Positions 1 through 27,215 of a stretch of 27,215 bases of DNA are shown in pieces. This DNA comes from a virus, in IMG/VR virus record IMGVR_UViG_3300010883_000338, positions 1 to 27,215 of that record. One strand, written 5' to 3'. Each line of letters starts with the position of its first letter. Within the stretch, counting starts at the first letter, position 1. A model generated the notes under the pieces. The model did no database searches and was not told the origin of the DNA. It saw only the letters and a list, made by a program, of their open reading frames with translations. Both the position numbers and the translations under genes were made by a program.

Positions 1-201
1 GCTACAAGAATATTGCCATCTTTTCTGCAAGGTGTTGATGTTGTTTATAACGCAACAGGAATGGCGTTTCATAAAGATGGTAACTTTCAAGAAACTGATA
101 TATCACTAAACTTTGTTGAAGAAAGACCTTTGACTAAGAGAGATATTATAGAAGAAGCCGCCGCACTTGGTGAAGACTATACGTTTGGGACGGGATTTTA
201 A
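1..201 (+). CDS. C-terminal end of baseplate tail-tube cap/initiator protein (gp48/gp54-like), partial
   Basis: The reading frame is open from base 1 and ends with TAA at 199-201, so the gene begins upstream of the window. The visible 66 residues contain 'NATGMAFHKDGNFQETDISL' followed by a Glu-rich 'NFVEERPLTKRDI' ending. A Gly, then a short His/Asp/Gly stretch, then a strand with an acidic end is what I expect at the C terminus of T4-type gp48 or gp54, proteins that cap the baseplate hub and start the tail tube. Its position directly before gp53 favours gp48 as in marine T4-like phages, but gp54 cannot be excluded from this fragment. One base separates its stop from the next ATG. Confidence 0.5.
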   Translation, partial: ATRILPSFLQGVDVVYNATGMAFHKDGNFQETDISLNFVEERPLTKRDIIEEAAALGEDYTFGTGF

Positions 202-202
202 C

Positions 203-1261
203 ATGGCATTTTTTAGAAACTTTCCAGTTGTTAATTATAATTTTGGAACAGAGACTTCTGATACAGCATTTCAAAACTTAACTGCTTACATAGATCTTGT
301 TGATCAGATAGCAGATGACGCAACATTCTACGAAGAGTATTATATCGATGATGCATCAAGACCTGATATTCTTTCATATGAGTTATATGGCAATGTCGAT
401 TTGTATTGGACTTTCTTTTTGTTAAATGAAAAGTTGCGTATACAAGGTTGGCCTCAGGACAATTATAAAATAAATGATCTTGCTAAAGTATATTATCCTA
501 ATAGAATATTAAAATCTACAGCGGCAATGCATGGAGAGTTTTATATTGGAGATCTTGTTGCGGATCGTGTTAACTCTGATGAGTTTGGTACAGTGTTCAA
601 AGGTAAGATTTTAGAGAAGAACTATGATCTTGGACAGATAACAGTGAAGCCTATTATTGATGTTAGGTCAATATCTCTGACTAATGGTGGCACTGGTTAC
701 ACCTCACCGCCTACTATAACCCTCGCTGGGGGTGGTGGAACAGGTGCAACTGGGCAAGCAGTTATGACCTATTTGGATGGTAGTGAAGTCAAAGTCTCAC
801 AGACAATACAATCTATAGCAGTCACAACAGGTGGTGAAGGATATACGAGTGCTCCCAGAGTTATTATATCAGAACCTAATATTGCAAATGGAACACAGGC
901 TACAGCAACCTCAGTACTTTCAAGCTTCAGTCTTCCTAACAGCACAACCATTTACTCTCAACGTAATCAACCAAATGTGTTGCTATGGGACGATGACCTA
1001 GTTCGAAGTTTAATAATACATAGTAATGTTAATCAGTATAATGCTCCTCATCACTATAATAATGCAAGTGGTGAAGAATCTGATTTAACTATAGTTGCTG
1101 GTGGTGGTGTAGAAAACAGAACATCGTTTGTAAGTCATACTCCAGTTACACATTTGGATCGTCTCATCGAATCTAATGATACCTTGCGTAGAATAAACAT
1201 ATTTAAACCTAATGTTGTATCTCAAGTAAACAGCGAATTTCAGAAACTATTAAGAAGTTAA
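203..1261 (+). CDS. gp53: Baseplate wedge protein gp53
   Basis: Product of 352 residues starting MAFFRNFP. The frame opens upstream at a TTG at 167, but the ATG at 203 directly follows the upstream stop and begins the conserved part. The N-terminal 100 residues (YNFGT near the start, an acidic 'YIDLVDQI' helix, 'RPDILSYELYGNVDLYW', then 'NDLAKVYYP') match the gp53 wedge family, where the Tyr-Trp 'DLYWTFFLLN' segment is typical. T4 gp53 is about 196 residues, so this one carries an extra C-terminal part. That part contains two Gly-rich beta repeats of the form NGGTGYTSPP and TGGEGYTSAP (about residues 165-225). The protein would help join the wedges around the hub. The family call is firm; the function of the extension is unknown. 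Confidence 0.85.
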   Translation: MAFFRNFPVVNYNFGTETSDTAFQNLTAYIDLVDQIADDATFYEEYYIDDASRPDILSYELYGNVDLYWTFFLLNEKLRIQGWPQDNYKINDLAKVYYPNRILKSTAAMHGEFYIGDLVADRVNSDEFGTVFKGKILEKNYDLGQITVKPIIDVRSISLTNGGTGYTSPPTITLAGGGGTGATGQAVMTYLDGSEVKVSQTIQSIAVTTGGEGYTSAPRVIISEPNIANGTQATATSVLSSFSLPNSTTIYSQRNQPNVLLWDDDLVRSLIIHSNVNQYNAPHHYNNASGEESDLTIVAGGGVENRTSFVSHTPVTHLDRLIESNDTLRRINIFKPNVVSQVNSEFQKLLRS

Positions 1262-1262
1262 T

Positions 1263-2618
1263 ATGTCAGATATAGTATCAGCGGAACAACTAAAAATAAT
1301 TAGTATTAGAATGGAGTCTGAACGATTCAGTGAGCCATTAATATTCTCTAATGCATCCGACTCTGGCATTGTTATTGAATTCAATATATACGAAAACTTA
1401 ACACTTGGATATTTGACAGGAGATATTATTCTTCAAGATGATCAAGACATTTATACACAAGCAGATATTAATGGAACTGAAAGAATAGTATTAGAGTTTG
1501 TAGTTCCTGATCAAACTACGAAATCAATAATTAAAACTTTTGTTGTAGAAGAAATTACTGATAGTATAAAATCTAACGATTACTCCTCAATAGTATCGCT
1601 ATCTTTGGTTGAAGATATAAAGTTCTATAACGACTTAAACAAGTTTAGTAAAGCATACACAGGAACTGGTGAGCAAATAATAAAAAACATTGTAAAAGAT
1701 AAACTTGGTAGAGAACTTATTATTGAAAGCAAAAAAGAAGCCGCACAAGCATCCTTTAGATACATTGTTCCTTATCAAGATCCACTAACTGCTATTAAAA
1801 CTATATTGACTAAAATGTCTACAGCTAATGGCTATCCATTTTTCTTTTACTCATCTATAGTAGATGATAACTTTTACTTGACTGATCTTGAAACTATTAT
1901 TAATACTCAATCCTTTAATCATATGAAACCATTCGTATACGATCAGGAAAACGTCAATAAGAATGATATAGAATCTCAAGCTACGAACATAACACATTTC
2001 GAATCAGGTCTTGCAGAGAATACTTTAGACCTAGCATTAGCGGGGGGAATGGGGTCTCAGTACGAATCTATTAATGCAACTACGGGAATAAACTTTATAT
2101 ATCATCAGGATATGAACAGGTATTTCAGTAAGTTAATAGAAGCAGAATTACTTCCAAAAGATCAAAACTTCATTGCCTTTGATAGTAAGTTTATATCAGA
2201 TCCTAAAAAAATAGATCAATCCAAAATAACTGATTTTAATTCAAAGATACATACTAGAGTAGTCACCAATCCCTATGATGATGCTAATGGATTTGATCAA
2301 GAATACAACGAAGTAAATGAAACTTTTAAATTGACTAAAAGAAGTATTATAGCACATTTGCTAAAAAACAAATATAACATAAATGTCCCCGGAATACTAT
2401 TTTCAATGAACAACATAGAAACTTGTGTCGGGCATCAGATATCTATGATAATATATAAAAATGATATAAGTCATGTTGTTGGGGGAAGAATTGATGAGAA
2501 GAGATCTGGAAGATTTGTGATACTTGCTAAACGCCATTGTTTAGATGTTGCGGGTGGGAAACATAATGTTTCTCTAGATCTATGTAAACTTGCTAGTCGG
2601 AGTATTTCTAATGAATGA
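1263..2618 (+). CDS. Baseplate hub protein, gp27-like (VrlC-like candidate)
   Basis: Product of 451 residues. The layout resembles T4 gp27, the torus-shaped hub subunit that binds gp5. An N-terminal half has a 'GYLTGDIILQDDQDIYTQ' segment followed by 'NGTERIVLEFVV', comparable to the EGMLQFYDSKN...MDGNEIIQI region of gp27. A middle part has 'DPLTAIKTILTKM' then a Phe-rich strand and 'FYLTDLETIINTQ', comparable to the 'SYVREVAL...FVFVW' region. No transmembrane or catalytic motif is seen. It sits one base after gp53 and overlaps the gp5-type gene (ATG at 2611, stop at 2616-2618), which fits a hub partner. Marine phage annotations often call a protein in this position VrlC; I cannot decide between the names without a profile search. 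Confidence 0.6.
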   Translation: MSDIVSAEQLKIISIRMESERFSEPLIFSNASDSGIVIEFNIYENLTLGYLTGDIILQDDQDIYTQADINGTERIVLEFVVPDQTTKSIIKTFVVEEITDSIKSNDYSSIVSLSLVEDIKFYNDLNKFSKAYTGTGEQIIKNIVKDKLGRELIIESKKEAAQASFRYIVPYQDPLTAIKTILTKMSTANGYPFFFYSSIVDDNFYLTDLETIINTQSFNHMKPFVYDQENVNKNDIESQATNITHFESGLAENTLDLALAGGMGSQYESINATTGINFIYHQDMNRYFSKLIEAELLPKDQNFIAFDSKFISDPKKIDQSKITDFNSKIHTRVVTNPYDDANGFDQEYNEVNETFKLTKRSIIAHLLKNKYNINVPGILFSMNNIETCVGHQISMIIYKNDISHVVGGRIDEKRSGRFVILAKRHCLDVAGGKHNVSLDLCKLASRSISNE

Positions 2619-3549
2619 ATACTATGGCGATAATAATAGGTGGTTTGTTGCGAGAGTTATTAATGGTAATGATCCTCAACAGGCTGGTAGATTTCAAGTA
2701 AGAATATTTGGTGTACACTCTCAAGAAGTTGAAGATAAGTTTCTACCTTGGGCTGAAACAGTCATGCCGACTACAGAGGGTGGAGTATCTGGTGTAGGTA
2801 GAATACCACAATTGAAGAATAATGCTTTAGTATTTGGGATCTTCTTGGACGGTAAAGCTTCTCAAAATCCTATGATAATTGGTTCTATGAGTCATATAGA
2901 ACAGCCCTCTTCTTCTCAAGTAAAAGCGGCGGCTGAATCTGGAAGAGTAAATCTTCTTGATTCTAAAAACATTGGTAAAGAAGGTGTTACAGTATCTGAA
3001 CAACAACGTCAGATGTATGAAAATGGTAGTGCTGAAATAAGACAGTTAAGAGTTTTGGTCATGGACTTTTTAATTAGTAATGGCCTTCCGATAAAATCAG
3101 CGGCTGGTGTTTGTGGTAACCTAGAAATAGAAAGCAACTTTGATCCTAAAGCTGTGTCGGCTGGCTCAGAAGACTCTAGAGGTATTGCTCAATGGAACTC
3201 AGGAGTGGGTAGATGGCAAAGAGTTGAGGCATATGCTTCTGACTTAAACGAAGATCCCTACGATCTTTTCCTACAGTTAAAGTTTTTAATATATGATATG
3301 AAGACAGGCGTACCACATGATTGTTGGAATCATTTAAGTAATGAGATGAATATAACTAACTTTGATGGAGATAAGGATGATACAAATTCCACATTTCATT
3401 TCTTTCACATATTTGAAAGAGCAGATCCAGCAAACTATAATAACAATAGTGGTAGATCAAGACCATTAGCGGCTAGAGCGGCTTATGATGAATACAAGGC
3501 AACTTTGATAGCTTCTGTATCCTCTAACTTATCATCAGGAGCTAGATAA
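2611..3549 (+). CDS. gp5: Baseplate hub OB-fold protein with tail lysozyme domain (gp5-type)
   Basis: Product of 312 residues; the ATG at 2611 was chosen over the upstream TTG at 2590 because it begins the conserved 'NEYYGDNNRWFVARV' strand and gives an ATGAATGA overlap with the hub gene. Residues 1-95 look like the gp5 N-terminal OB domain: 'GRFQVRIFGVHS', 'LPWAETVMP' and 'GIFLDGKASQNPMIIGSM'. Residues about 140-290 look like a phage tail lysozyme domain of the Phage_lysozyme2 type: 'AAGVCGNLEIESNFDPKA' with candidate catalytic Glu172 or Glu174, then 'GIAQWNSGVGRW' (residues 191-202). T4 gp5 instead carries a T4-lysozyme fold. The beta-helical needle of T4 gp5 is missing here and lies two genes downstream. 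The protein should cut peptidoglycan during tail penetration. Confidence 0.8.
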   Translation: MNEYYGDNNRWFVARVINGNDPQQAGRFQVRIFGVHSQEVEDKFLPWAETVMPTTEGGVSGVGRIPQLKNNALVFGIFLDGKASQNPMIIGSMSHIEQPSSSQVKAAAESGRVNLLDSKNIGKEGVTVSEQQRQMYENGSAEIRQLRVLVMDFLISNGLPIKSAAGVCGNLEIESNFDPKAVSAGSEDSRGIAQWNSGVGRWQRVEAYASDLNEDPYDLFLQLKFLIYDMKTGVPHDCWNHLSNEMNITNFDGDKDDTNSTFHFFHIFERADPANYNNNSGRSRPLAARAAYDEYKATLIASVSSNLSSGAR

Positions 3550-5043: not shown

Positions 5044-7503
5044 ATGGCGTATGGTAAATATCCAAATAACCTTTCAGGAATTCCTCAGGAAATTATAGAT
5101 GCTAGAGTTTCTAGCAAGTCTAAAAATCGTCCAGAAGATCCTACTGGTCAGTATCCAGAGACAGACTACTTCTTTTCAAGCAATATTTCCAAGGAAGCAA
5201 GAGGCGTTGCCAGAAATGACCTAGAGTTTTTCGCTCAGTATGATGACGTTGAGTTGGAAACGGGTAATAAAGTTTCTTCTGTTTATGGTAAGAACCAAGT
5301 ATCTAAATCAGAAAAGGGTCATGTATGGGAAGTAGATGACACTGATGGTAATGAACGTATCCTTATCAAGCATATAGAAGGTAGTGGTATTGAACTTACT
5401 CCTGATGGAAGTATTATTATTAGCACTAAGAAAAGAAAAGTGGAAGTCATTGGTGGCTCTAATGAAGTTATCGTTGAGGGAGACGCACAGCTAGTCTATA
5501 AGGGCAACCTAAACATTAAAGTTGTTGGAGAGTTCAATGTTGATTGCCTAGACTATAATGTTAAAGTGAACGGTAATAAGGTTGAAACTATAAGAGGGTC
5601 TGAAGAAAAGCACGTAGGTAATGGATCACAGTCATCTGTAACAGGACCAATAACAACATACTCTACTGGATTGGTTACGGATGTATTCTTGGGCGGTCAT
5701 CAACACAACGTCAAAGGTAATCTAGATTATAACATCAATGGCAATGTTGGTTTGTTTTCAAGTGGAACGATGGACGTTACATCAGAAGATTATCTTAATA
5801 TGTCTGCCGATAACTTCACTGCCTCTGCTAACAACATGACACTACAAGGCGGCACAGGGGTTATAGGCGGCACTGCAATGGACTTTGTGGGTAATGGTGC
5901 TATCTTTGATCAAGGTGTTAAGGCTCCTACATTTCATGGAGATTTAAAAGGAACTGCTACTACAGCAACTGTGGCACAATCCCAAAACTATGCTGATCCC
6001 AATGGTGGTGGTGGTGTTGGTACGGCTGGCACTATTACAGACACAGCAACTCCTTCTATCACAGCGCCAACCTCAACTAAGGTTCTTACATATTTGTTAA
6101 AGGCCGCTGGCGGTATTCGTAAGGTAATCATTGACAAGGGTGACTACATTAAGAACTTCATTGATAAGTCCAATGACTATAGTGGCGTGTCTAATGGTTA
6201 TATGACAACAGGACAGGCCAGATCAAAGTTAAGAGATGTTGTTAACTCTGGTAATGCTCAGTTTGTGGGGCAACTATTAAAAGAAAATCTTATTTGTTCT
6301 GATTATAACAACCCCCTACCAGAGAGAACTGGTAGAACGGTAAGACAGGAATCTACTCCTGTGTTAAGTACTATGCCAGCAAACATTTACTCACCACAGA
6401 TTTCCGCAACATTTATAACCAAAAGATCCGCTCTAAGTATTGTACCTGAAGAGAAGTATAATCCTTTAAGACAAGATGATATTACAATCAAGACTAAGTT
6501 GTCTGACAATATTACTATAGCCAAGTTCTTAGGGTCTGATGACTCTACAAACCTTAAGTTTATAAAGTCTCTTTCAGTAAAAAGAGATATTGCTAAGAAC
6601 TTATATGCTCATTCACTTATACTTAAAAAAATACAGAATAACAATGAAAGATTTAGAGGTGTTAATCTCGTAGTATCTGAGGGCGTCTACAGACCAAGTG
6701 CTTCGGAAATAATAACACCCAATAGTATAAATGATCTAAAGGCTAAAGGAAAGGCCGTAGTCTATAAAGCAATCAATAGAAAAGGTAAGCCAAATAACCT
6801 AGACTTATTCGATATCGCAGAATACTTAAAGGACGTTAGTTTCTTCGATGAGATGATCTTATCTTATGACACTTTAGAGTGTGTGGGTGATCAGGTTGTA
6901 TTGAGTTCAAGACTAATCATAGTCATGCCAGACATTGATGATCAGTGGACAGGCACATTCAGAAGAAAAATATCTACTGAATATAATAGACAGTTGTTAT
7001 CTGAAGGTGAGTTTATCGAATGTCTATTAGAAACCACAGAGACTTTAGAGGAACGTGTGCGGAATAAATCTGCCACACCGCCAACTGACAATGTTGTTAC
7101 TCACACTAGAGGGAATGATAGAATACACTGGCCTGATCAAAGAATAGTAGACTCCATTGCTGAAGCAGTGAGAGAGCTTGGTGAAGGTTACACAGCACAG
7201 ATCACATCAGATGGTGGTAGAGCGAAAAGAGATAGTGGGACTAATAATCATCCTGTTGGTGAAGCGGCAGATCACTTCTTACTGCTTGATGGGGTTCGTA
7301 TCAATCCTTCACAGAATAAGATCTTGTATCAACGTTATATTAGGATACTAGTCAGAAACGCAAAGGCACGTGGTGTTCGCCCCGGTATTGGTGGCTATTC
7401 AACATTTATTCACTATGATGAGAGTGAATGGAGACAAGCGGGTGCAGATGATGCTGGAACTTGGAGTAATGGTTTTAATGTTTCCTTCGCAAAAATCGTA
7501 TAA
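5044..7503 (+). CDS. Baseplate spike: beta-helical gp5-C-like region with C-terminal M15-type peptidase domain
   Basis: Product of 819 residues, starting one base after the previous stop. Residues about 92-300 are short alternating strands ('GSGIELTPDGSIIIS', 'VEVIGGSNEVIVEGDAQLVY', 'GNLNIKVVGEFNVD', 'GGHQHNVKGNLDYNINGNV') like the trimeric beta-helix of gp5/VgrG needles. Residues about 400-690 are a mixed region I do not recognise. Residues about 700-815 look like an M15 D,D-carboxypeptidase/endopeptidase: 'NNHPVGEAADH' gives His736 and Asp743, and 'GGYSTFIHYDESEW' gives His790, the usual zinc triad spacing. The protein would form the membrane-puncturing needle and cut peptide cross-links. 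The gene's stop codon is part of the late promoter of the next gene. Confidence 0.75.
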   Translation: MAYGKYPNNLSGIPQEIIDARVSSKSKNRPEDPTGQYPETDYFFSSNISKEARGVARNDLEFFAQYDDVELETGNKVSSVYGKNQVSKSEKGHVWEVDDTDGNERILIKHIEGSGIELTPDGSIIISTKKRKVEVIGGSNEVIVEGDAQLVYKGNLNIKVVGEFNVDCLDYNVKVNGNKVETIRGSEEKHVGNGSQSSVTGPITTYSTGLVTDVFLGGHQHNVKGNLDYNINGNVGLFSSGTMDVTSEDYLNMSADNFTASANNMTLQGGTGVIGGTAMDFVGNGAIFDQGVKAPTFHGDLKGTATTATVAQSQNYADPNGGGGVGTAGTITDTATPSITAPTSTKVLTYLLKAAGGIRKVIIDKGDYIKNFIDKSNDYSGVSNGYMTTGQARSKLRDVVNSGNAQFVGQLLKENLICSDYNNPLPERTGRTVRQESTPVLSTMPANIYSPQISATFITKRSALSIVPEEKYNPLRQDDITIKTKLSDNITIAKFLGSDDSTNLKFIKSLSVKRDIAKNLYAHSLILKKIQNNNERFRGVNLVVSEGVYRPSASEIITPNSINDLKAKGKAVVYKAINRKGKPNNLDLFDIAEYLKDVSFFDEMILSYDTLECVGDQVVLSSRLIIVMPDIDDQWTGTFRRKISTEYNRQLLSEGEFIECLLETTETLEERVRNKSATPPTDNVVTHTRGNDRIHWPDQRIVDSIAEAVRELGEGYTAQITSDGGRAKRDSGTNNHPVGEAADHFLLLDGVRINPSQNKILYQRYIRILVRNAKARGVRPGIGGYSTFIHYDESEWRQAGADDAGTWSNGFNVSFAKIV

Positions 7504-7528: not shown

Positions 7529-7975
7529 ATGGCAACCAATAGAGTATTATCAAAAGAGGATGGCAATCTTAGTAAGTCTGCTTTAATAGTAAGTAGGAAG
7601 ACTGAGTATAAAGATATTGATTTATCCTTTACTGCTAAACCTAATGGTGAAATATTCACTAAGAAAGAAGCGGCGGCTGTTAAGCAATCAGTAAAAAATC
7701 TTGTTATGACTAACTTCTTTGAGAAGCCATTCGAGCCTTTCTTTGGTGGAAATATAAGAGCACTACTATTCGAATTAGCCGATGACGATATTGAAGATGA
7801 TGCACGTGAAAATATAGTCAGAGCTATAAATGCTTATGAACCAAGAGCAATTATTAGGGCTATTGATGTAAATTATCAAGAAGAAAGAAACTCTATATCA
7901 ATAACAATAGAGTTTCAAATTGTAAACACAGAAGAAGTTGTGACGTTCACGACTTCCCTATCAAGGTTAAGATAA
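7529..7975 (+). CDS. gp25: Baseplate wedge protein gp25
   Basis: Product of 148 residues, close to the usual gp25 length. The family features are clear: 'EYKDIDLSFTAKPNGEIF' near the N terminus, 'KEAAAVKQSVKNLVMTNFFE', then 'KPFEPFFGGNIRALLFEL' and a C-terminal 'EPRAIIRAIDVNYQ' strand. gp25 sits at the junction of the inner wedge with the hub and primes sheath assembly. The start at 7529 is preceded by a purine-rich 'GAGAAG' and by the late promoter at 7499. The next gene begins one base after its stop, so translation is likely coupled with gp6. Confidence 0.95.
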   Translation: MATNRVLSKEDGNLSKSALIVSRKTEYKDIDLSFTAKPNGEIFTKKEAAAVKQSVKNLVMTNFFEKPFEPFFGGNIRALLFELADDDIEDDARENIVRAINAYEPRAIIRAIDVNYQEERNSISITIEFQIVNTEEVVTFTTSLSRLR

Positions 7976-7976
7976 C

Positions 7977-9983
7977 ATGGCAACAACGATTAAATCATCA
8001 GCCTTAGACTTTAACAATATCAAGAGTAATCTAAAAGATTATCTTGCTAATAAAGATGAGTTTAAAGATTATAACTTTGAGGCATCAGGTCTTTCAAACA
8101 TCCTTGATGTTCTAGCCTACAACACACATCTCAATGCTCTTATAGCAAACTTCGCTCTTAATGAATCATACCTTCCGACTGCACAGTTAAGAAGTTCGGT
8201 TGTTTCCCTATCAGAAGGTATAGGGTATGTACCAGACACTGATACATCATCTCAGGCAAAGGTTAGACTTACTTTGAACTCAACCGCTGTTGCCCGTGAG
8301 CAAACTATTATTCTACCAGCATACACCAAATTCACTTCAAGTGTAGATGATGCGACATACAGCTTCCAGAATGTAGAAAACTTTTCTGCTACAGATGATG
8401 GCACAGGTTTCTATGAGTTTAAAACAAATGCTGGATCAAATCGCATTCCAATCTTTGAAGGTACACTGAAAACAAAAACATTCCTAGTTGGAGAATACGA
8501 AGATAACCCTGTTTATGTTATTCCAGATGGAACGGCTGATGCGGATACTGTTACGATAAAAGTATTTACGAGTGCTACGTCAACAGACTTTGTAACATAT
8601 CAGAACATTAAAAGTGCCACCACTCTTAGCGCCAACTCAACAATCTATATTCTAAAAGAATCTCCTAATGGATACTTCGAACTATCTTTTGGTGATGGTG
8701 TAACATTCGGTATTGCTCCTAGTGCTGGTAATCGTATTGAAGTTGAATACCTATCAGTAAAAGGTGCTGTTGCTAATGGTGCTAGTGTGTTTGTTCCTTC
8801 AGCACAGTTCACATCAGGAAACATAACTTCTGATATTAATGTTGTGACATATGTGAACTCTATTGGTGGTGAAGAGAAAGAAAGCATAGAATCTATTCGT
8901 AAGAATGCGCCTTTCAGATATGCTACTCAAAACCGTATGGTCACGGCAGAAGATTACTCATCACTTATACTTCAGAGTTATTCTACTCTCATACAAGACA
9001 TTGCTTCATGGGGTGGAGAAGTTGCGGTAGATCCTGAGTTTGGTGCTGTATACATATCAATATTGTTTGAGAGTGATGTTACTACAGAAACTATTGCCAC
9101 AACAAAACAGGCAATACGAGATCTAGCCACACAACTGTCTATTGTATCTTTCAATATTAGATTTATAGATCCTATTCAAACATTTGTTGAAATGGATACG
9201 TTCTTTCAGTTCAACCCAAAACTTACAGACTTAACTTTAAATGCTGTACAAGATTCTATTAATACTATTATTTCTGGATACTTTACTACAAATACTGGTA
9301 ACTTTAAACAGGCATTCAGAAGATCGAATGTCCTATCTCTTGTAGATGAATCTTCTCCCGCTGTTCTCTCATCAAGATCGAATGTTAGACTGCAACAAAG
9401 ATTTACGCCTACAGCACCGACTTTGATCAGTGTTATAAACAAGTTGCTTTCAAATCCTCTTACAACATCTGCTACTAACCTTAATAAAATAGTTGACTTT
9501 GTTGTCAGTCAAAGATATAATGATGCGGCAAACTATATGGTGTTAAACGATCTTAGTGGTGAAAACACTACATACATTAAGTCAAAACTATCAGCCGCCA
9601 AAGTTTCTATTAATCAACAGTTACAGTTTCCAGTATCGATTGCGGCACCTGATGATAACGAATATATTATTACAAGTAATGAATTTACATTCCAAAGTCA
9701 AACGTGTATGCTTAGAAATAAACTAAGTTCAAATATTATTCAGATTGTAGCCATTGCTGGCGGGGCAATACTAGTAGATAATGTAGGAAACTATATCGCC
9801 GCAACAGGTGTAGTTACGATTAACTATTTTAATCCTACAAGTATATCCGCTGGATTAACATTTATTAAACTAGCGGCAGTTCCTTCTAATCAAAGTGCTC
9901 TAGCGCCAACACGAAACGAGATATTAAACTTCGATACAGATAGATCGACAACAACCGCTGTAACAGTAAGTGCAATTAACTAA
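7977..9983 (+). CDS. gp6: Baseplate wedge protein gp6
   Basis: Product of 668 residues, similar in size to T4 gp6 (660). The N terminus has 'FNNIKSNLKDYLANKDEFKDYNFEASGLSNILDVLAYNTHLNA', the typical gp6/gpJ-like opening. Further features are 'PNGYFELSFGDGVTFG' (about residues 227-242) and 'GGEEKESIESIRKNAPFRY..QNRMVTAEDYSSL' (about 298-330), the baseplate_J-type core. gp6 dimers clamp gp25 and gp7 to form the inner ring that triggers contraction. It lies directly after gp25 and its stop overlaps the next ATG (TAATG at 9981-9985). Confidence 0.92.
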   Translation: MATTIKSSALDFNNIKSNLKDYLANKDEFKDYNFEASGLSNILDVLAYNTHLNALIANFALNESYLPTAQLRSSVVSLSEGIGYVPDTDTSSQAKVRLTLNSTAVAREQTIILPAYTKFTSSVDDATYSFQNVENFSATDDGTGFYEFKTNAGSNRIPIFEGTLKTKTFLVGEYEDNPVYVIPDGTADADTVTIKVFTSATSTDFVTYQNIKSATTLSANSTIYILKESPNGYFELSFGDGVTFGIAPSAGNRIEVEYLSVKGAVANGASVFVPSAQFTSGNITSDINVVTYVNSIGGEEKESIESIRKNAPFRYATQNRMVTAEDYSSLILQSYSTLIQDIASWGGEVAVDPEFGAVYISILFESDVTTETIATTKQAIRDLATQLSIVSFNIRFIDPIQTFVEMDTFFQFNPKLTDLTLNAVQDSINTIISGYFTTNTGNFKQAFRRSNVLSLVDESSPAVLSSRSNVRLQQRFTPTAPTLISVINKLLSNPLTTSATNLNKIVDFVVSQRYNDAANYMVLNDLSGENTTYIKSKLSAAKVSINQQLQFPVSIAAPDDNEYIITSNEFTFQSQTCMLRNKLSSNIIQIVAIAGGAILVDNVGNYIAATGVVTINYFNPTSISAGLTFIKLAAVPSNQSALAPTRNEILNFDTDRSTTTAVTVSAIN

Positions 9984-11075: not shown

Positions 11076-12077
11076 ATGGCAAAACAGACAATCAATACGG
11101 GTACATCTGCAAATGACAGGACGGGTGATACATTACGTGGTGCTGGTACAAAGATTAATGCCAACTTCACAGAACTGTATAATTTTTTAGGTGGATCTAC
11201 CATTAGTGCTGGCACATCACAACTTACTGATAGTGGAATGGACATTATAAGTGCTGGTGGACGTACTAAGCTTGGAGCCGTTAACCCTGCCTCTGAAATC
11301 AATATAGATTTCGGAGATTCTTCTGGTATAGTATTGGTTGACACCGCTATACAAACTATGAGTAATAAGACACTAACTAACCCACAACTCAATAATCCAT
11401 CACTACATGATATGAGATTGTGGGATGCAGACTCTAGTCACAGATATACTTTTGTTGCTGGAGCATTGAGTGCAAATCGTAATATAACATTACCAGCACT
11501 ATCTGCAAGTGATACTATGGTTATGAATAATACATCAGCAACATTAACAAATAAAACGTTGACAGATCCTGTTGTGCAAAGACCTAAAGTTCATGAGTAC
11601 TTAACCGATTCTGCTAGTAATGCAGTCATATCCTTTACGAACACTTTTACACCTTCTAGAAATAATGTTAAAGTGTCTTCTAAAGCGGCTGGAACATCAC
11701 CTGTTATAGAAGCTATAGGTTCAGATGCTAATCTAAACTTAGATCTAACTTCTAAAGGAACTGGATCTGTTAAGATAAGTAAAGCGGCTGTTAGTTATGC
11801 TACAGCGGCAAATAGTGCGGCGGCTTCAGTAAGTGCTGGATTTATATCTCTAACAGGATCTTCTTCAGGCACAGTTACATTAGCTGATGGCACACTCAAT
11901 GGTGAAATGAAGACATTTGCAAGACGTGGGGGTGGTTCAGGTACAGTATCAGTAACACCAGCAACCTTTGCTCAAGGAACAAGTATTAACTTTGATCCAC
12001 TAGATACAGCACAACTCATTTGGGACGGAACCAACGGTTGGAATATTATCGGTGGTTATGGATATGCAGTCGTATAG
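11076..12077 (+). CDS. Fibre-like virion structural protein
   Basis: Product of 333 residues. The N terminus reads 'INTGTSANDRTGDTLRGAGT' followed by 'KINANFTELYNFL', a start found on many marine T4-like phage virion and fibre proteins and thought to be an attachment module. The middle carries repeated 'NKTLTNPQLNNP' / 'NKTLTDPVVQRP' elements (about residues 92-172), typical of trimeric fibres. The C terminus is beta-rich with a 'RRGGGSGTVSVTP' loop and ends 'WNIIGGYGYAVV'. It follows a late promoter and precedes the gp8-like gene. A short fibre or baseplate decoration role is likely; the exact T4 counterpart is not identifiable. Confidence 0.6.
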   Translation: MAKQTINTGTSANDRTGDTLRGAGTKINANFTELYNFLGGSTISAGTSQLTDSGMDIISAGGRTKLGAVNPASEINIDFGDSSGIVLVDTAIQTMSNKTLTNPQLNNPSLHDMRLWDADSSHRYTFVAGALSANRNITLPALSASDTMVMNNTSATLTNKTLTDPVVQRPKVHEYLTDSASNAVISFTNTFTPSRNNVKVSSKAAGTSPVIEAIGSDANLNLDLTSKGTGSVKISKAAVSYATAANSAAASVSAGFISLTGSSSGTVTLADGTLNGEMKTFARRGGGSGTVSVTPATFAQGTSINFDPLDTAQLIWDGTNGWNIIGGYGYAVV

Positions 12078-12087: not shown

Positions 12088-13494
12088 ATGCCAGCAATTA
12101 TTACAGACAGATTAAAAAGACAGTTTGCACAGCAAATATTTGATGAGAACCAAGGTACAAATCGTGGTGACTCTGATAACTATTTCTACATTGGGATTGG
12201 TCACTCTCAGATCTGGCAACCATCTGCTAATACTGATACTACAGTGTCTCCAAGCAATACTGAAAGAGATCGTAAACAGTTTAGATACAATCTTCAATCA
12301 GTAAAAGCAGTCGAAGCATTTTCCTTTGTAGTACCTTTGACTGATTGGACAACTAATACAGTTTATCCAGCCTTCAATGATAACATTGTTGGACAACCAA
12401 CTCCTTCATACTATGTAAGAACCTCTGACAATAACATATATGTTTGTATTCGTCAAGGTAAAAATAGTTTTGGAGCGGCTGTAGTATCACAGTTCGTGCC
12501 AGATCATACTAATACATCTCTTCCAATAGAAAGTGATGGGTATGTCTGGAAATATATGTACACAATTACTACTGCCGATTCAAATAGGTTCTTGACTTCT
12601 AACTTTATGCCTGTTAAGTTTGTTGACTCAGCGGCGGCAACTGATCCTAACTTCGCACAAAAGTCTGTACAAAATGCGGCTGTTGATGGTCAGGTAATAG
12701 GATATCGTGTAGCACCTAACACTGGAGTGTATTCAGCGGCACCGATACTCACTGTTGTTGGTGATGGTAGTGGCGCAAAAGCCCATGGTATTCTTGATGC
12801 CACAGGTAAGTTGGCGGCAGTTGAAGTAGGTGATAGTGCTGGCGTAGGTAGTGTTGGTGGAACACCATTCATCCCTGCTTTAGGCACTGGCTACAATCAA
12901 GCCTCTGTTAGAGTTGCGGCAACAAGTTTGACCTCAGGAGTTACAGCGGAAGTATTCCCAATATTTGCCAACCCCGGTGGTATGGGCGCAGATGCACGTT
13001 CAGACTTGAGATCGACTAACATGATGTTTAACATTAAGCCTGAAGGTAATGTTAGTGGAACATTCATTGTTAACAACGAATATCGTCAAGTTGGTCTACT
13101 TAAAAATCTAAAAGATTCTGCTAGTGGAACTAAGTTCCAACTATCACAAGGAAGAGCCGTTAAGCAACTTGTATTGACTTCTGCTATCGCAGGGGGTCTA
13201 TCTTGGGCTGATGATGTTACAATCAATGGTGATAGTAATGCCAAAGCATGGATTGACTACTTTGATGACTCTGCAACACTATGGTATCATCAAGATGAGA
13301 CCACAGGATTTACTCCATTCAGAGATGCTGAGACCGTAACAATCTCAGGCAAATCAGGATCTTTCACTGTTGGTAGCAGAGTTGCTAGGCAGATAGACAT
13401 ACACTCTGGTGAATTATTGTTCCTAAATAATCAAGCAAAGATTGCTAGAGACGCTAATCAAACTGAAGATATTAAAATCGTTATTAAACTTTAA
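12088..13494 (+). CDS. gp8: Baseplate wedge protein gp8-like
   Basis: Product of 468 residues. The first 200 residues look like gp8: 'FAQQIFDE', 'YFYIGIGHSQIW', a 'RDRKQFRYNLQSVKAVEAFSFVVPLTDW' segment, then 'YVCIRQG' and 'SDGYVWKYMYTITTADSNRFLTSNFMPV'. T4 gp8 is 334 residues; the extra length is in the centre and C terminus, where Gly-rich beta repeats ('GDGSGAKAHGILDATGK', 'GTGYNQASVRV') resemble those in gp53. gp8 dimers sit in the outer wedge and bind gp7 and gp10. An AGG lies shortly upstream of the ATG at 12088. Confidence 0.75.
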   Translation: MPAIITDRLKRQFAQQIFDENQGTNRGDSDNYFYIGIGHSQIWQPSANTDTTVSPSNTERDRKQFRYNLQSVKAVEAFSFVVPLTDWTTNTVYPAFNDNIVGQPTPSYYVRTSDNNIYVCIRQGKNSFGAAVVSQFVPDHTNTSLPIESDGYVWKYMYTITTADSNRFLTSNFMPVKFVDSAAATDPNFAQKSVQNAAVDGQVIGYRVAPNTGVYSAAPILTVVGDGSGAKAHGILDATGKLAAVEVGDSAGVGSVGGTPFIPALGTGYNQASVRVAATSLTSGVTAEVFPIFANPGGMGADARSDLRSTNMMFNIKPEGNVSGTFIVNNEYRQVGLLKNLKDSASGTKFQLSQGRAVKQLVLTSAIAGGLSWADDVTINGDSNAKAWIDYFDDSATLWYHQDETTGFTPFRDAETVTISGKSGSFTVGSRVARQIDIHSGELLFLNNQAKIARDANQTEDIKIVIKL

Positions 13495-17293: not shown

Positions 17294-18963
17294 TGACTGG
17301 TATTTTACAACTAACAGAACAGAAAAGTCCTACGGCACAAACCTTTGTGGTTGATGAGGCTAGTGTTCTAACAGGCATTGGTATTTTCTTCTATTCGGCA
17401 GATACTACTTTACCAATCACTTTGGAACTTAGGCCAACTACTGAGGGTGGACAACCTTCTGGAAAACGATACGTCCCCGGAAGTAGAGTAGTAGCAACGG
17501 CGGCGGCTGTTGGTGCTAAAGCGGCTACAACATTTTCTGCGGCAACAGAATATAAGTTCGAGTTCACGTCTCCTATATACGTTCCTAGTAATACATTATT
17601 ATCAGTGTGCATTTATTCTTCTGCATCAGGTGATACATACAAAACTTACTTTGCAAAGAATGGAGATTTTAACTTTGGGACTACTACAGCAAGGTATAAC
17701 TCTACAGTCAATACTTCTAACGGAGCACTGTATGCGTCATCTAATGGCACTACTTGGGAAGGTGATAATAATAAAGACCTGACCTTCAAAGTATATAGAG
17801 CACAGTTTGATACTTCACTTGCGGCAACTGCTAAACTCAAAACTAATATCCCACCTGTGAAAAAACTTACAGAGAGTTTGATACAAAATCAACTAGGCGA
17901 TTATGTTTTTGATCCCCTAAGGTTCACCGCTGGTGATTCAGATCTTTCTGTCTTACACCCCGCACATGGATTTAGAGTTGGTGATGTGGTTACTCTATCT
18001 ACAGATGCTAGTGGTTTTGATTCAGCGGGAACAGTAAATGGTGTAAAGGGTAGTAGTATTCTTGGTCAAAGAACTATCACTAAGGCTGATCCTTTTGGAT
18101 ATACATTCAAGATGGATTCAGCAAGTGCGACAGCATCAATAAGGGCTGGCGGCACAGGACTATATGCTACAGAACAGCATGAGATAGATGAGATGATGTT
18201 GAAACTCCCATTCATGGCTCCACCAAGTACGAATGTTACAGCCTCAGGAAACTTCACTTCATTAGGTGCTTGGCAAGATACTGCCACTGGATATAACGCT
18301 GTAACTAATGTAACTCTTAATCTAGACAGACCCCAACTACTTAGCACACCTTCAGTTATTTCCGCTAAAAAGCAAGAAGCCTTGAAGCTAAGTGGTGCGG
18401 CATCTACTAATATTACAGTTAACATGAATACAAGTAACGCAAACGTAGCACCATATTTTAATATCAACACTGCCTCTCTTGAAACAGTTTCTTTCTTTAT
18501 TGACCATCAGCAAGATAGCACTGGAACTCTTACTAATAGAAACAAGATCTCTACTGTTGCATATACGGCTGAAACAAATGCTGTTGGTGGAACAAACGCA
18601 AGTAAACACATAACCACGCCTTATGTTCTTTCAAACTCTTCAACATCTATTGTAGCACTTGTTGATGCGGTAAGACCTATCGGGGCAGACTTTGACGTTT
18701 GGTTTAGAACTAGTTTAAACTCTACTGGTGCAAAACTTTCTGAAAAAGATTGGACAGTATTTTCTAAAGATAGTAGGACAACTAAGGGTAATAACTACAT
18801 TGATATTCCACCTTCTGATAACCTAAGTCTGTTCTCAGAGTATGAGTTCAATGTATTTGATCTTGCGGCTTTCGATGAATACCAAATAAAAATAACAATG
18901 AACGCTGAGAAATCCACAAGAATTCCACGTTTCGCAAACTTGAGAACAATAGCAACATCATAA
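17293..18963 (+). CDS. Tail structural protein, C-terminal half partner
   Basis: Product of 556 residues; ATG overlaps the previous stop. The N terminus has 'SPTAQTFVVDEASVLTGIGI' followed by 'FFYSADTTLPITLELRPTTEGG' (residues about 12-55), a beta-sandwich-like domain found in marine T4-like tail proteins. Residues near 215-250 contain 'HPAHGFRVGDVVTLSTD', an H-x-HG-F-x-x-GD motif seen in phage tail beta domains. The C terminus 'FDEYQIKITMNAEKSTRIPRFANLRTIATS' is also typical of these proteins. No enzyme motif is present. It is probably an outer baseplate or fibre-connector component. Confidence 0.55.
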   Translation: MTGILQLTEQKSPTAQTFVVDEASVLTGIGIFFYSADTTLPITLELRPTTEGGQPSGKRYVPGSRVVATAAAVGAKAATTFSAATEYKFEFTSPIYVPSNTLLSVCIYSSASGDTYKTYFAKNGDFNFGTTTARYNSTVNTSNGALYASSNGTTWEGDNNKDLTFKVYRAQFDTSLAATAKLKTNIPPVKKLTESLIQNQLGDYVFDPLRFTAGDSDLSVLHPAHGFRVGDVVTLSTDASGFDSAGTVNGVKGSSILGQRTITKADPFGYTFKMDSASATASIRAGGTGLYATEQHEIDEMMLKLPFMAPPSTNVTASGNFTSLGAWQDTATGYNAVTNVTLNLDRPQLLSTPSVISAKKQEALKLSGAASTNITVNMNTSNANVAPYFNINTASLETVSFFIDHQQDSTGTLTNRNKISTVAYTAETNAVGGTNASKHITTPYVLSNSSTSIVALVDAVRPIGADFDVWFRTSLNSTGAKLSEKDWTVFSKDSRTTKGNNYIDIPPSDNLSLFSEYEFNVFDLAAFDEYQIKITMNAEKSTRIPRFANLRTIATS

Positions 18964-19178: not shown

Positions 19179-21372
19179 TTCAAAGATACCCACAGTCCAG
19201 TTAACGGATACATTCAATACTCAACGTAATAGGTTTAACTCCCTTGTTGACTCAGTTGGTGACGTTTCAACTTTAACTACAACTTCTAAAGAAGTCACTG
19301 GGGCTATAAAAGAACTTGATGCCGAATTAGGAACCATTACAGCGGGTGCCATGGGTACTACCGCAACCACAGTTTCGACTGCAATAGGTGAAATAGATGG
19401 CCGCCTAGACTCAATCAATACTACACAGTTACTATCACCAAGGATGACACTAAGCGATAGTTCAGCAAACAATATTATTCGTGGTAAACTTCAGATTGAT
19501 GGGGGAATAACTTCTTTATCAGCAAGTAATCTTACTTTAGATAGTGATCTTACTGTACACGGTATAGCCAATCTAGATTCTACTAATGTTGTTGGGCAAC
19601 TTGATGTTACTGGAAGTATTACAGCCACAAACTTTACAGTAAGTGGGGCTTTTACCACAGCGGGTGCTACTAGAAATGCGGCTTCTTTTGTTGTAACAAA
19701 CGATGGTGCCACAGTTACTAATACTAACAGGGCTGGCCTAGCAGTTGACAGACCATCTTTGGATAGTGCTGTTATACAATGGAATGAACTAGGAGACTTT
19801 TGGGAGATAGGAACTAACCAGACTGATGGTGGTGCTTCATCTGATTTAAAACGAGTCGCTAGACAGAACGATAGTGCGGTATTCACAAACCTAATGCAAA
19901 GTGGCACTGGTGCCACTAGAATACCAGCGGGTACGACAGCACAAAGACCTTCATCTGAACAGGGTCAGATACGTTACAATACTACTAATGCTTCATTCGA
20001 AGGCTATAGCGGATCTGCTTGGTCAGGTCTAGGTGGACTTATTGATGTTGATGGTGATACTAAAGTTCTTGCTGAGAGATCGGCGGGTAATGATAGTGAT
20101 ACCTTAACCTTCTTCACTGGTGGCGTAGAACGTCTCAGAATGAATGATAGTGGATCAACCTTTGCTACCAATATTAGTGGCGCTGGACTCACACTATCTG
20201 GTAACATAACTATGGTTGGTGGTAGAACAGTAGATGGATATGACGTATCCTCATTGGGATCAAAACTAGCAGGGATAGAAACAGGGGCAACGGCAGATCA
20301 GACAGCCGCTCAGATTAAAACTGCATATGAGGGTAATGCTAATACAGAAGCATTTACTACTGCGCTACAAAGTAAACTAAATGGTATTGCGAATAGTGCT
20401 AATAACTTCACCTACACGTTGCCTACAGCGGCGGCTGGCACTAAAGGTGGTGTAAAAGTTGGTAGTGGATTAAGTATTAGTAGTGAAGTTCTTAGTCACA
20501 CAGATACTTCTTCACAAGCATCTTCTAATAATAGTGGTAGAACATACATCCAAGATATTACACTTGATACTTATGGTCACGTCACTGGCCTTGCCACAGC
20601 ATCTGAATCAGTTGTTAATACTGATACGAATACAACTTATACTGGTGGTACAAATATTAGCCTTAGTGGGACACAATTTAACTTAGATGCTGATCTTAGT
20701 GGTATTTCTACTATTTCTAGTACGGGGGATATGTTCCTGAGAGCCACTGGTGATGATATTCATATGCAAGGCACATCGTCTTCTGAAGAGATTCGGTTTG
20801 GTCTAGAGAACTCAACGCAAGAAATTCACGCTTCCGATGCGTTGACTGTGATGGCAAACACTACTGCATACATAAAATCTGGCTTCGCTATTCAACTTGG
20901 TGCTGGAAATGGGCTAATCGATCTAGGACAATATGCTGATGGAGCCGACCCCTTGTCTTTTGATCAAGATATAAGATTTGACGTTGCAACAACAGATACA
21001 CTAAAAATATATACTGGCACTTCAACTCTAAACTCTACATTCTCTGGTGATGACCTAACAGTTCAGGGTGATGTAAATTCTCTATCTGATGTTCGCACAA
21101 AAGAAAACATTGTAACAGTTGAGAGTGGCTTAGATCTAGTATCACAACTACGTGGCGTGTGGTATAATAAGATTGGCTCTATCAATATACTGGATGGTAA
21201 ACCAGAGGGCCGTAAAGTCGGTGTGATTGCCCAAGAAGTAGAAAAAGTTCTTCCAGAAGTTGTTAGCACTGATGGAGATGGTATGAAAGCTGTTGACTAC
21301 GGTAAAATGGTTGGTGTTCTTATTGAAGCGATTAAAGAATTGAAGCAAGAAATAGAAGAATTAAAGGGTTAA
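19171..21372 (+). CDS. Long tail fibre with C-terminal S74 intramolecular chaperone
   Basis: Product of 733 residues. The N terminus ('IPTVQLTDTFNTQRNRFNSL', then 'LTTTSKEVTGAIKELDAELG') is the attachment module of many marine phage fibres. The middle is repetitive beta structure with 'SGSITATNF'-like and 'QTAAQIKTAYEGNANTEAF' elements. The C terminus is an S74 chaperone: 'SDVRTKENI' with the Ser639-Lys644 pair expected for self-cleavage, then 'RKVGVIAQEVEKVLPEVV', 'VDYGKMVGVLIEAIKELKQE'. Cleavage before Ser639 would release about 95 residues after trimer folding. It is the best candidate in the window for a host-recognition fibre; the next gene may supply the tip. Confidence 0.85.
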   Translation: MANSKIPTVQLTDTFNTQRNRFNSLVDSVGDVSTLTTTSKEVTGAIKELDAELGTITAGAMGTTATTVSTAIGEIDGRLDSINTTQLLSPRMTLSDSSANNIIRGKLQIDGGITSLSASNLTLDSDLTVHGIANLDSTNVVGQLDVTGSITATNFTVSGAFTTAGATRNAASFVVTNDGATVTNTNRAGLAVDRPSLDSAVIQWNELGDFWEIGTNQTDGGASSDLKRVARQNDSAVFTNLMQSGTGATRIPAGTTAQRPSSEQGQIRYNTTNASFEGYSGSAWSGLGGLIDVDGDTKVLAERSAGNDSDTLTFFTGGVERLRMNDSGSTFATNISGAGLTLSGNITMVGGRTVDGYDVSSLGSKLAGIETGATADQTAAQIKTAYEGNANTEAFTTALQSKLNGIANSANNFTYTLPTAAAGTKGGVKVGSGLSISSEVLSHTDTSSQASSNNSGRTYIQDITLDTYGHVTGLATASESVVNTDTNTTYTGGTNISLSGTQFNLDADLSGISTISSTGDMFLRATGDDIHMQGTSSSEEIRFGLENSTQEIHASDALTVMANTTAYIKSGFAIQLGAGNGLIDLGQYADGADPLSFDQDIRFDVATTDTLKIYTGTSTLNSTFSGDDLTVQGDVNSLSDVRTKENIVTVESGLDLVSQLRGVWYNKIGSINILDGKPEGRKVGVIAQEVEKVLPEVVSTDGDGMKAVDYGKMVGVLIEAIKELKQEIEELKG

Positions 21373-24461: not shown

Positions 24462-24470
24462 ATTAATATA

Positions 24471-24923
24471 ATGAAAAAAGAATGGGTACATCCATTTTGG
24501 GAAAACGCCGCAAAAGACAGGTTAACTGTTAGATTGAATATTACACATGATGATGGTTCTTATTCAACAAGTGTTGCTAAAGTTTCCAAGTATGATATTG
24601 ATGGAAAAATAACTTCAGACTATGAAGAAGTTGTAGAACAAAATACTATGGCTAAAATTAATGAGTTTACTCAAGACCGTTTAGATCGTCATAAAACAGA
24701 ACGTGAAAGTAAAATTAAAAAACAAAAAGAAGTCAATGAATCTAAAAGACTTGAAGATTTATTTAATTATAAACTACAGACTTTTGAAATCCCTCAGGTA
24801 AAAGAATCTACTAATCGCACACTGAAATCTAAAATCAGAAAAGCTAAAAATGCTATTGAAATGCAAGCATATGCTACTATATTATTAATGGAGATTATGA
24901 ATGAAGAAGAAAAATCCGACTAA
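24471..24923 (+). CDS. Conserved-looking coiled-coil protein of unknown function
   Basis: Product of 150 residues starting MKKEWVHPFWENAAKDRLTV. Residues 1-55 look like a small beta domain ('RLTVRLNITHDDGSYSTSVAKV'). Residues 60-100 are strongly charged and helical ('QDRLDRHKTERESKIKKQKE') and would form a coiled coil. The C terminus is another helix ending 'MEIMNEEEKSD'. No signal peptide or catalytic motif. It follows the Tyr-rich protein after 12 bases with a good ribosome binding site and overlaps the glycosyltransferase gene by 23 bases. It could be a chaperone or adaptor for the Tyr-rich protein, but this rests only on position. Confidence 0.6.
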   Translation: MKKEWVHPFWENAAKDRLTVRLNITHDDGSYSTSVAKVSKYDIDGKITSDYEEVVEQNTMAKINEFTQDRLDRHKTERESKIKKQKEVNESKRLEDLFNYKLQTFEIPQVKESTNRTLKSKIRKAKNAIEMQAYATILLMEIMNEEEKSD

Positions 24924-25752: not shown

Positions 25753-26435
25753 TGAACATTAAACACAACTATGTGAGAGATATTGATCTAAAAAATAAAG
25801 AGTTTTTAGATATATTAGATGAATATAAAGATGTATTGCTTAAGAGAGATCAGCCTGATGATGATCCACTAATTGCAAAAGAACTTTACATCACTAACAA
25901 AGACGATAAAGCAGAAGACTATGTTTCAGATCAGTATCTGAAAGAGATTATGTTTATGGGTGATAGGCACGATGGATTTCCAGTAGTGTTAAAAGGATTT
26001 ACTGGACTTAAGCATACTGATGGACAACATAAAGATGGAAAGATTATTAAAGAAGCTACGTCAAATTTGAACTCAAAACTTATTGAGTTTCTTTCTTGTA
26101 GAAATAATGCCCTTAATGCTTGCTATCCACCGGGTGGGTTTATCTCTTGGCACAATAATGCTAATGCTTCAGGGTTTAACATCATTATAACCTATTCAGA
26201 AACGGGTGAAGGATGGTTCGACTATTGGGATACTGAAAAGAAAGAACGTATTAGAGTTCAAGATAAGAAAGGCTGGCAAGCAAAGATGAGTTACTTTGGT
26301 GAGTATCATACTCCAGATAGCCTATGCTATCATGCCGCTTATACAGACTGTTATCGTATCACTGTATCATTTGTTTTTGCAGAGGCTGATGCATTTTGGG
26401 AAGAGGTGATTGAGGATCTTGAAACAGAAAGTTAA
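25752..26435 (+). CDS. 2-oxoglutarate/Fe(II) oxygenase-like protein with variant metal triad
   Basis: Product of 227 residues from the ATG at 25752 (TAATG overlap); the frame opens 78 bases earlier but that part would lie inside the glycosyltransferase gene. The C-terminal half resembles the double-stranded beta-helix of 2OG oxygenases: 'CYPPGGFISWHNNANASGF' with His134, 'GWFDYWD', and 'CYHAAYTDCYRITVSFVF' with His194 and Arg202 spaced as the distal His and 2OG-binding Arg. The usual HxD is His134-Asn135-Asn136, so the acidic ligand appears to be Asn. The enzyme could hydroxylate a protein or sugar, or be altered in activity. Its place between two glycosyltransferases suggests a shared substrate, which is inference. 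Confidence 0.62.
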   Translation: MNIKHNYVRDIDLKNKEFLDILDEYKDVLLKRDQPDDDPLIAKELYITNKDDKAEDYVSDQYLKEIMFMGDRHDGFPVVLKGFTGLKHTDGQHKDGKIIKEATSNLNSKLIEFLSCRNNALNACYPPGGFISWHNNANASGFNIIITYSETGEGWFDYWDTEKKERIRVQDKKGWQAKMSYFGEYHTPDSLCYHAAYTDCYRITVSFVFAEADAFWEEVIEDLETES

Positions 26436-27105
26436 TATAGTATGCGTCTGTGTAGGCACAAAGTACTCTAAAGAACACGTCAATAGATTACATAGAATGG
26501 TAGAGCGTAACTGTACTCTACCATTTTCTTTTTATTGTATATCGGATGTTCAGCAAGAAGTCAATACTATTTTTATCGATAAGAGTCTAGACTTAGAAAC
26601 TTATTGGTGGAAAATAGAACTTTTTAATCTTGACTTTGATGACCCAACGTTGTATCTTGACTTAGATGTTGTGATACAAAACAACATAGATTATATGTTT
26701 GATGACATTGATGACACGCTGAGAATTATCAATGGTGAAGATATTGGTGAGGATTATCTTTATGATGGAACACCTGATAACATTTTAACCATCCCCACAA
26801 CTAGCATAAATACATCTATAATGTTGTTATATACCAAACAGCATAAAGAAATATACGATAAGTTTATAGAAAATATTGATTATAATATCATACACTACTA
26901 TGGATTAGACAGGTTCATTACTCATGAATACAGCAACCTGTCTTGTTTTGATTTCAAACGTGACTACTATCATAGGGCGAAAGGTTGGTTATCTGACGAT
27001 AAGTTAGATGATGGCCTATTGAACTACGATCCTGATAGAACAATATGTATTTTATCTCAGTGTGAAGACCAACATTATAAAAGTTTAGAGAAATATTTCT
27101 TATAA
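26419..27105 (+). CDS. GT-A fold glycosyltransferase, second copy type
   Basis: Product of about 228 residues. No ATG is available near the start; TTG at 26419 gives MKQKVNIVCVCVGTKY, a natural first strand, with GAGGTGA nine bases upstream. TTG at 26410 would add three residues. 'HVNRLHRMVERNC' follows, then 'FDDPTLYLDLDVVIQNNIDYMFD' with the DxD motif (Asp81 and Asp83), 'ITHEYSNLSCFDFKRDYYH' and a C-terminal 'KSLEKYFL'. The beginning resembles GT8-like or LPS-type transferases. It overlaps the oxygenase gene by 17 bases. A terminator-like hairpin lies early in the coding region, and the stop codon is embedded in a late promoter. Confidence 0.68.
   Translation: MKQKVNIVCVCVGTKYSKEHVNRLHRMVERNCTLPFSFYCISDVQQEVNTIFIDKSLDLETYWWKIELFNLDFDDPTLYLDLDVVIQNNIDYMFDDIDDTLRIINGEDIGEDYLYDGTPDNILTIPTTSINTSIMLLYTKQHKEIYDKFIENIDYNIIHYYGLDRFITHEYSNLSCFDFKRDYYHRAKGWLSDDKLDDGLLNYDPDRTICILSQCEDQHYKSLEKYFL
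26496..26533 (+). terminator. Terminator-like hairpin with T-run inside the second glycosyltransferase gene
   Basis: AATGGTAGAG (26496-26505) and its exact reverse complement CTCTACCATT (26516-26525) form a perfect 10-base-pair stem with a 10-base loop, followed by TTCTTTTT (26526-26533). That is the shape of a rho-independent terminator. It begins 77 bases after the proposed TTG start, so it would stop part of the transcription before most of this gene. Activity is inferred. Confidence 0.5.
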
Positions 27106-27108
27106 ATA
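27101..27108 (+). promoter_or_regulatory. T4-type late promoter core upstream of the 27143 gene
   Basis: TATAAATA, with the stop TAA of the glycosyltransferase gene at 27103-27105 inside it. The 16-mer starting here, TATAAATAAAGGTAAA, is identical to the one at 7499. The leader to the ATG at 27143 is about 35 bases including AAGAG shortly before the start. Confidence 0.75.
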
Positions 27109-27142
27109 AAGGTAAAGTTGAAAATAAATAAGAGATTTACAT

Positions 27143-27215
27143 ATGTCGCAGTACGAAGATTTCACACTAAATCAAGGCGCAGACTTTAGTATACAACTAG
27201 AGCTAGTCGATAAAA
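27143..27215 (+). CDS. Start of a small virion-type protein, partial
   Basis: ATG at 27143 opens MSQYEDFTLNQGADFSIQLE and runs off the window. The 'YEDFTLNQGADFSIQLEL' opening is like that of short marine T4-like phage virion proteins that begin with an 'x-QG-x-x-F' strand. It follows a late promoter and an AAGAG site. Only 24 residues are visible, so the product remains tentative. Confidence 0.5.
   Translation, partial: MSQYEDFTLNQGADFSIQLELVDK

Follow-up and report, generated by a model that had tools for sequence, protein, structure and literature searches.

IMG/VR record IMGVR_UViG_3300010883_000338 consists of 27,215 bp of viral DNA with 37.6% GC, and the window discussed here is that record in full. 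An original prediction, made from the letters alone, held that the words GCAGC and GCTGC (together GCWGC) seem to be entirely missing from it and that the gap points to selection against a restriction or methylation target, or to some other process. The question raised by this stretch is how so short a word came to vanish, and whether host restriction enzymes or some other process removed it. GCWGC is one of about a dozen short words purged from the lineage to which the window belongs. Very probably Type II restriction enzymes of the hosts, from several systems, selected for the loss of these words, and the sites were removed mostly by synonymous change.

Words missing from the window and its lineage

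Exact counting gives no GCAGC and no GCTGC in the window beside 49 GCGGC and 17 GCCGC, as had been claimed. An earlier estimate that 15 to 20 GCWGC sites should be present was right in direction and too low in size. Base composition predicts 11.2 and 9.8 for the two forms and a third-order Markov model 7.4 and 13.5; dinucleotide shuffles predict 26.6 (standard deviation 4.9), and synonymous-codon shuffles that keep the protein predict 45.1, with a minimum of 34 over 300 shuffles. The absence is far from chance.

Other words, not named in the original prediction, are missing too. With elimination of a Type II site defined as an observed/expected ratio below 0.1 at an expectation above 15, the window has lost GCWGC (0/45), CCWGG (0/19) and CGCG (0/17.5), and CGWCG (10.6 expected), CAGCTG and CTGCAG (11.6 expected for each) are likewise at zero. 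A 43.8-kb record, G001, includes the window sequence at 99.9% identity, and GCWGC is absent from each of the lineage contigs of 43.8 kb, 36.1 kb and 10.3 kb, for an overall count of 0/136. In a lineage pool of about 90 kb, composed of G001, the 36.1-kb G024 from another part of the genome, and L480, CCWGG and CGCG are at zero against expectations of 56 and 55, and GATC, TTAA, CATG, CTAG, TATA and ACGT occur at normal counts. Over 57.7 kb of the lineage the nearly absent words include GCAGC, CCAGG, CGCG, CGACG, CAGCAG, TACAGG, ACCTGC, CAGCTG, CAGCTC, CTGCAG and CAATTG. Applied to G008, a relative sampled over 70.7 kb, the same procedure lists not one word, which shows the null model to be sound. 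The purge falls just short of total, because the more divergent members G002/L011, L186/L195 and L106 retain one GCWGC site each.

As the record is a metagenome assembly, it could be proposed that GCWGC-bearing sequence was lost during library preparation. Other phage contigs from metagenome 3300024346 nevertheless carry GCWGC at the expected level (28 against 25.6, and 14 against 11.8), and lineage contigs from that same metagenome have none against expectations of 22 and 15. The coding sequence is also unbroken, with codon swaps in place of gaps, and a sampling or assembly artefact is left with a vanishingly small probability.

How the sites were lost

The manner of loss can be read against a sister record, G005, which has 75% nucleotide identity to G001. 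None of the 52 aligned GCWGC sites of G005 is kept in G001, and the control words ACWGT and TCWGA are kept at 28/63 and 29/73 (Fisher p=1.4e-9 and p=1e-8 against GCWGC). Thirty-three of the losses involve a single base. In 29 cases this is the central W, and the changes there are mostly A>C or T>C when read on the G001 strand, A>C being the commonest (16). GCSGC stands at 112 in G001 against 34 expected, a gain that matches the GCWGC lost; total GCNGC is thus unchanged, because GCWGC was turned into GCSGC by third-base swaps in alanine codons.

This spectrum bears on mutational decay, in which cytosine within GCWGC, methylated by an enzyme of the host or the phage, would be deaminated to TpG or CpA forms. 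CCWGG and GCWGC are both typical words for methylation at cytosine, and an N4-methylcytosine (m4C) GCWGC methylase is present in lake Chloroflexi (PMC6329791). Deamination should leave C>T and G>A changes, yet C>T accounts for only two of the 33 single-base losses and G>A for none. The gain in GCSGC, equal to the GCWGC lost, also speaks against decay. Unless some unknown process targets the central base, the substitution spectrum refutes methylcytosine decay, which is accordingly rated highly improbable. The GCSGC count also bears on a modification-dependent nuclease of the BisI kind, cutting GCNGC, as the driver of the loss. Homologues of BisI are described as recognising methylated GCNGC (PMC4926085, PMC8281217). 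GCSGC would be an equal target of such an enzyme when modified, but it is in threefold excess, and the GCNGC-wide depletion expected of a BisI-type target is not seen. A BisI-like agent is therefore very unlikely, as it would require that GCWGC alone be modified.

Alanine codons provide a further view of the process. Before a codon beginning with GC, the lineage writes alanine as GCG 114 times and as GCC 50 times, with GCA and GCT together at 0/164, in agreement with the earlier observation on Ala-Ala pairs; elsewhere GCA/GCT are common (1414/1778). Most expected GCWGC are in-frame Ala-Ala pairs, which speaks for a codon-pair or tRNA effect, by which GCG and GCC would be preferred for translation in the first position of such pairs. 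Sister phages at 75% nucleotide identity, however, use GCA/GCT freely before codons beginning with GC (94/115 in G005). In the pool of about 90 kb, moreover, off-frame GCWGC is at 0 against 13.4 expected, and CCWGG and CGCG are at zero in all three frames, with a third-frame expectation for CGCG of 35.9. The original prediction had named a codon-pair model with near-zero expectation as a result that would refute it, and the off-frame counts show that this refutation fails; a codon-pair rule fails because off-frame copies are missing and other words are purged as well, and little credence attaches to it. GCWGC has been purged in every reading frame and in every sampled region of the genome, mainly by synonymous W>S changes.

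Turnover among relatives and the case for restriction

Of the tested loci of 4.5 kb or more that carry gp32 or are tail-fibre-linked, those of the window lineage alone show strong depletion of GCWGC; the word is normal in relatives at 70-75% nucleotide identity and in almost all other gp32-bearing relatives. Each avoiding lineage lacks a word set of its own, for example CATG, GGWCC, CCGG or AATT. Loci L176/L177 are without CATG, CCGG, CGCG and GGWCC, and L179-L181 without CGCG and GGWCC; AATT has observed/expected counts of 3/59 in L113 and 10/138 in L114. A 142-kb contig, L082 (JAAXIF010000028.1, a relative binned in a Sphingobacteriales metagenome-assembled genome, or MAG), has CCGG at 1/132, GGWCC at 0/91 and CGWCG at 0/140, and TTCGAA is also massively lost there. 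In a gp32 tree the window lineage (L105) lies beside AATT-avoiding sister-type loci, with non-avoiding lineages around them. G027 (L221), with GATC at 1/80, AGCT at 0/59 and GCWGC at 5/32, seems to have lost the last of these words independently of the window lineage, a second such case; L260 and L262 group with it as a second set in which this word is depleted. Word sets, made up mostly of classical Type II sites, that change in this way from lineage to lineage are expected from changing host restriction and are difficult to explain otherwise.

The purged words mostly match known Type II specificities, and their loss relative to the relatives is without a mutational or codon-bias cause. CCWGG is the target of EcoRII, CAGCTG of PvuII and CTGCAG of PstI, and CGCG is also a known Type II specificity. 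Elimination as strong as this has been linked to orthodox Type II sites in phages with double-stranded DNA (dsDNA), more often non-temperate ones (Rusinov et al. 2018, PMC6286503), and GCWGC is the target of TseI (PMC6329791). Methylation at CGCG and CCWGG has been reported for marine viral genomes (PMC9516812), and a sea-ice Polaribacter is reported to be methylated at CCWGG (PMC12570018). Selection by host restriction is the best supported reading because the purge extends to all frames, sister phages and phages of the same metagenome are normal, and classical Type II sites were lost jointly. The hosts would possess, now or in the past, more than one Type II restriction-modification system: GCWGC or GCAGC would be recognised by one of them, and CCWGG, CGCG, CAGCTG, CTGCAG and related words by others. 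Genomes bearing such sites would be cut on entry, favouring mutants that had lost them, and removal would proceed chiefly through synonymous change of GCA or GCT to GCG or GCC in the first alanine codon of Ala-Ala pairs, until almost no sites were left. The agents would be host restriction enzymes, and the cytosine of the phage would be ordinary and non-hydroxymethylated.

The particular enzyme is less easily named. The original prediction of selection on a restriction target is supported; its assignment to a TseI/ApeKI-type enzyme is not separable from a BbvI-type recognition of GCAGC, because GCAGC reads as GCTGC on the opposite strand. For the same reason GCAGC and its complement would together appear as GCWGC if the nuclease were of Type IIS or III (BbvI-like at GCAGC or EcoP15I-like at CAGCAG) or a broader enzyme of CAG/CTG words. 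Such an enzyme would fit the depletion of CAGCAG (1/48), ACCTGC (1/28) and the CWGCWG class (1/93). Against it, phages seldom eliminate the sites of Type I, IIG and III systems (PMC6286503), the words CCWGG, CGCG, CAGCTG and CTGCAG all belong to the classical Type II palindromes, and a general CWG effect is absent since ACWGT and TCWGA are normal; this alternative is unlikely, though it deserves some weight.

Several observations weigh against selection by Type II enzymes. In the 57.7-kb pool the non-palindromic words TACAGG/CCTGTA (0/40), CAGCAG and ACCTGC are depleted, and TACAGG and CAGCAG are not known as Type II palindromes; TACAGG is not known to fit any restriction specificity. AATT, AGCT and GTAC are depleted only in part in the larger pool, and GGAGG, whose depletion is greatest on the sense strand, may be scarce for a different reason. 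No host or cognate enzyme was found, and the MAGs that contain related phage contigs are from unrelated phyla.

GGAGG itself is nearly gone from the sense strand of genes in G001 (4/40) and G005 (2/44) and also in G009, and is normal in G008. Shine-Dalgarno-like motifs occur upstream of genes in all four of these records despite this difference, and a Shine-Dalgarno difference was rejected as a clue to the host as such motifs are found in all lineages. Assignment of a host through MAG association (Sphingobacteriales, Thiotrichaceae, Opitutia, Euryarchaeota and others) was rejected as misbinning.

Gene context, gp42 and the meaning of the purge

The window is almost wholly coding, with 97% of its bases in codons, and contains tail and baseplate genes of the T4-like type (Table 1). 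The nearest named relatives are distant: Phage C48C1 (Kyanoviridae), at 37% protein identity, is followed by Pelagibacter phage HTVC008M and Methylophilales phage Melnitz. The lineage is one of marine T4-like (Kyanoviridae-like) phages with a T4-like baseplate and genes of DNA metabolism, and is probably lytic. A 733-aa open reading frame (ORF) has repeated Tyr/Asn/Thr-rich motifs (YTRNFTGNF-like) and matches no PHROGs family.

Table 1. Positions of features in the window and in related loci
Record	Positions	Strand	Feature	Family or basis
Window	1..27215	.	Stretch without GCWGC, CCWGG, CGCG, CAGCTG, CTGCAG, CGWCG	counts
Window	167..1261	+	ORF, baseplate wedge-like N-terminus	phrog_232
Window	1263..2618	+	ORF, tail protein	phrog_350
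Window	2926..2933	+	Ala-run GCGGCGGC, two overlapping GCGGC; example of replacement codon choice	
Window	5044..7503	+	ORF, baseplate hub / tail lysozyme-like	phrog_430
Window	7670..7677	+	Ala-run, two overlapping GCGGC	
Window	7977..9983	+	ORF, baseplate wedge (gp6/J-like); query for finding relatives	
Window	11076..12077	+	ORF, baseplate wedge tail-fibre connector-like	phrog_677
Window	12631..12638	+	Two overlapping GCGGC	
Window	17500..17507	+	Two overlapping GCGGC	
Window	20428..20435	+	Two overlapping GCGGC	
Window	22257-24458		ORF, 733 aa, probably part of a tail fibre or adhesin	
Window	26410..27105	+	ORF, phage glycosyltransferase-like	phrog_1962
L427	15203-16099		D12 adenine methyltransferase	
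L417	13788-14678		D12 adenine methyltransferase	
L427	2429-3772		N6/N4 methyltransferase	
L417	1774-2961		N6/N4 methyltransferase	
L286 (G028)	2090-3481		Cytosine/purine/uracil permease	PF02133, E=5.5e-79

Some relatives may have kept their sites by another route. A deoxycytidine monophosphate (dCMP) hydroxymethylase of the T4 gp42 family is found in G031, where the protein matches PDB 1b49 (E=3e-74), and in G028, a record of the non-purging type, where it is 51% identical to phage gp42. Directly after the hydroxymethylase gene of G028 lies the permease of Table 1, an unusual auxiliary gene. Not one of 65 gp42 loci of at least 8 kb shows a multi-word purge (two or more words lost), and ten have a single-word depletion, nine of GATC and one of GCGC. 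GATC is the sole depleted palindrome (for example 0/51) in L363, L365, L366, L370, L371, L373-L375 and L377. As GATC alone is depleted in some gp42 phages, hydroxymethylation may not protect from a GATC system. The 142-kb avoiding contig has no gp42; the same MAG contains a single match, a weak one (E=1.4e-7) that lies on a different contig.

The usual gene order of gp42 lineages is gp41, ThyX, Na/Pi transporter, gp42, dCMP deaminase and SleB; in the avoiders L427/L428 it is gp41, ThyX, D12 methyltransferase, SleB, Na/Pi transporter and a porin-like gene. A D12 adenine methyltransferase follows ThyX in two avoiding lineages (L427/L428 and L414/L417), where gp42 is absent, and an N6/N4 methyltransferase lies upstream in L427 and L417. 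L480, of the window lineage, has the Na/Pi transporter followed by the porin-like gene, like the avoiders, and its sampled sequence stops before the ThyX-SleB stretch. That stretch lies outside G001, G002, G024 and G025, in which no match to dCMP hydroxymethylase was found; nor did PF00145 or PF01555 match in the searched phage records, outside which the region of the avoiders' methylases (PF01555, D12) also lies.

In T4-like coliphages, sites are avoided in 2.4% of cases with dCMP hydroxymethylase and in 55.8% among relatives without it (PMC6286503), and a comparable gp42 split is seen among the phages related to the window. Here, however, the group is marine and uncultured, and in two avoiding lineages a D12 methyltransferase follows ThyX where gp42 lineages carry gp42 and dCMP deaminase. 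gp42 is the likely reason why some relatives keep their sites, on the basis of a correlation among related phages that is not phylogenetically corrected, and many loci without gp42 are likewise unpurged. More tentatively, and at somewhat less than even probability, a single locus might decide survival of restriction: gp42 and dCMP deaminase beside ThyX would give hydroxymethylcytosine DNA with all sites kept, and phages without gp42 would carry methyltransferases and have to purge each cytosine-containing site open to cutting by their hosts, leaving a barcode of host nucleases that differs even among closely related phages.

That methylation systems in nature do target GCWGC is evident from M.AbaBS3I of lake Chloroflexi (PMC6329791) and from a described GCDGC methylase (PMC8936443). 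No such gene was found in, or linked to, the window phage or its host. The window lineage resembles the cases of Rusinov et al. in being a T4-like dsDNA phage from which short Type II words have almost entirely disappeared, and differs from them in that several words are gone together and the set differs between sisters of about 75% DNA identity. The mechanism is a known strategy seen unusually clearly; what is informative is how many words were purged and how the set shifts from one close relative to the next. If the restriction reading is correct, absent words would read out the nucleases that a host population uses against this phage, a readout that shifts between phages about 75% identical, and contigs of uncultured phages could be sorted by host defence with no host known. 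The contrast between hypermodification and purging has so far been shown, in the literature consulted, only for a handful of coliphages, and relatives with and without gp42 would then offer natural matched sets for asking whether DNA hypermodification lifts the pressure to purge.

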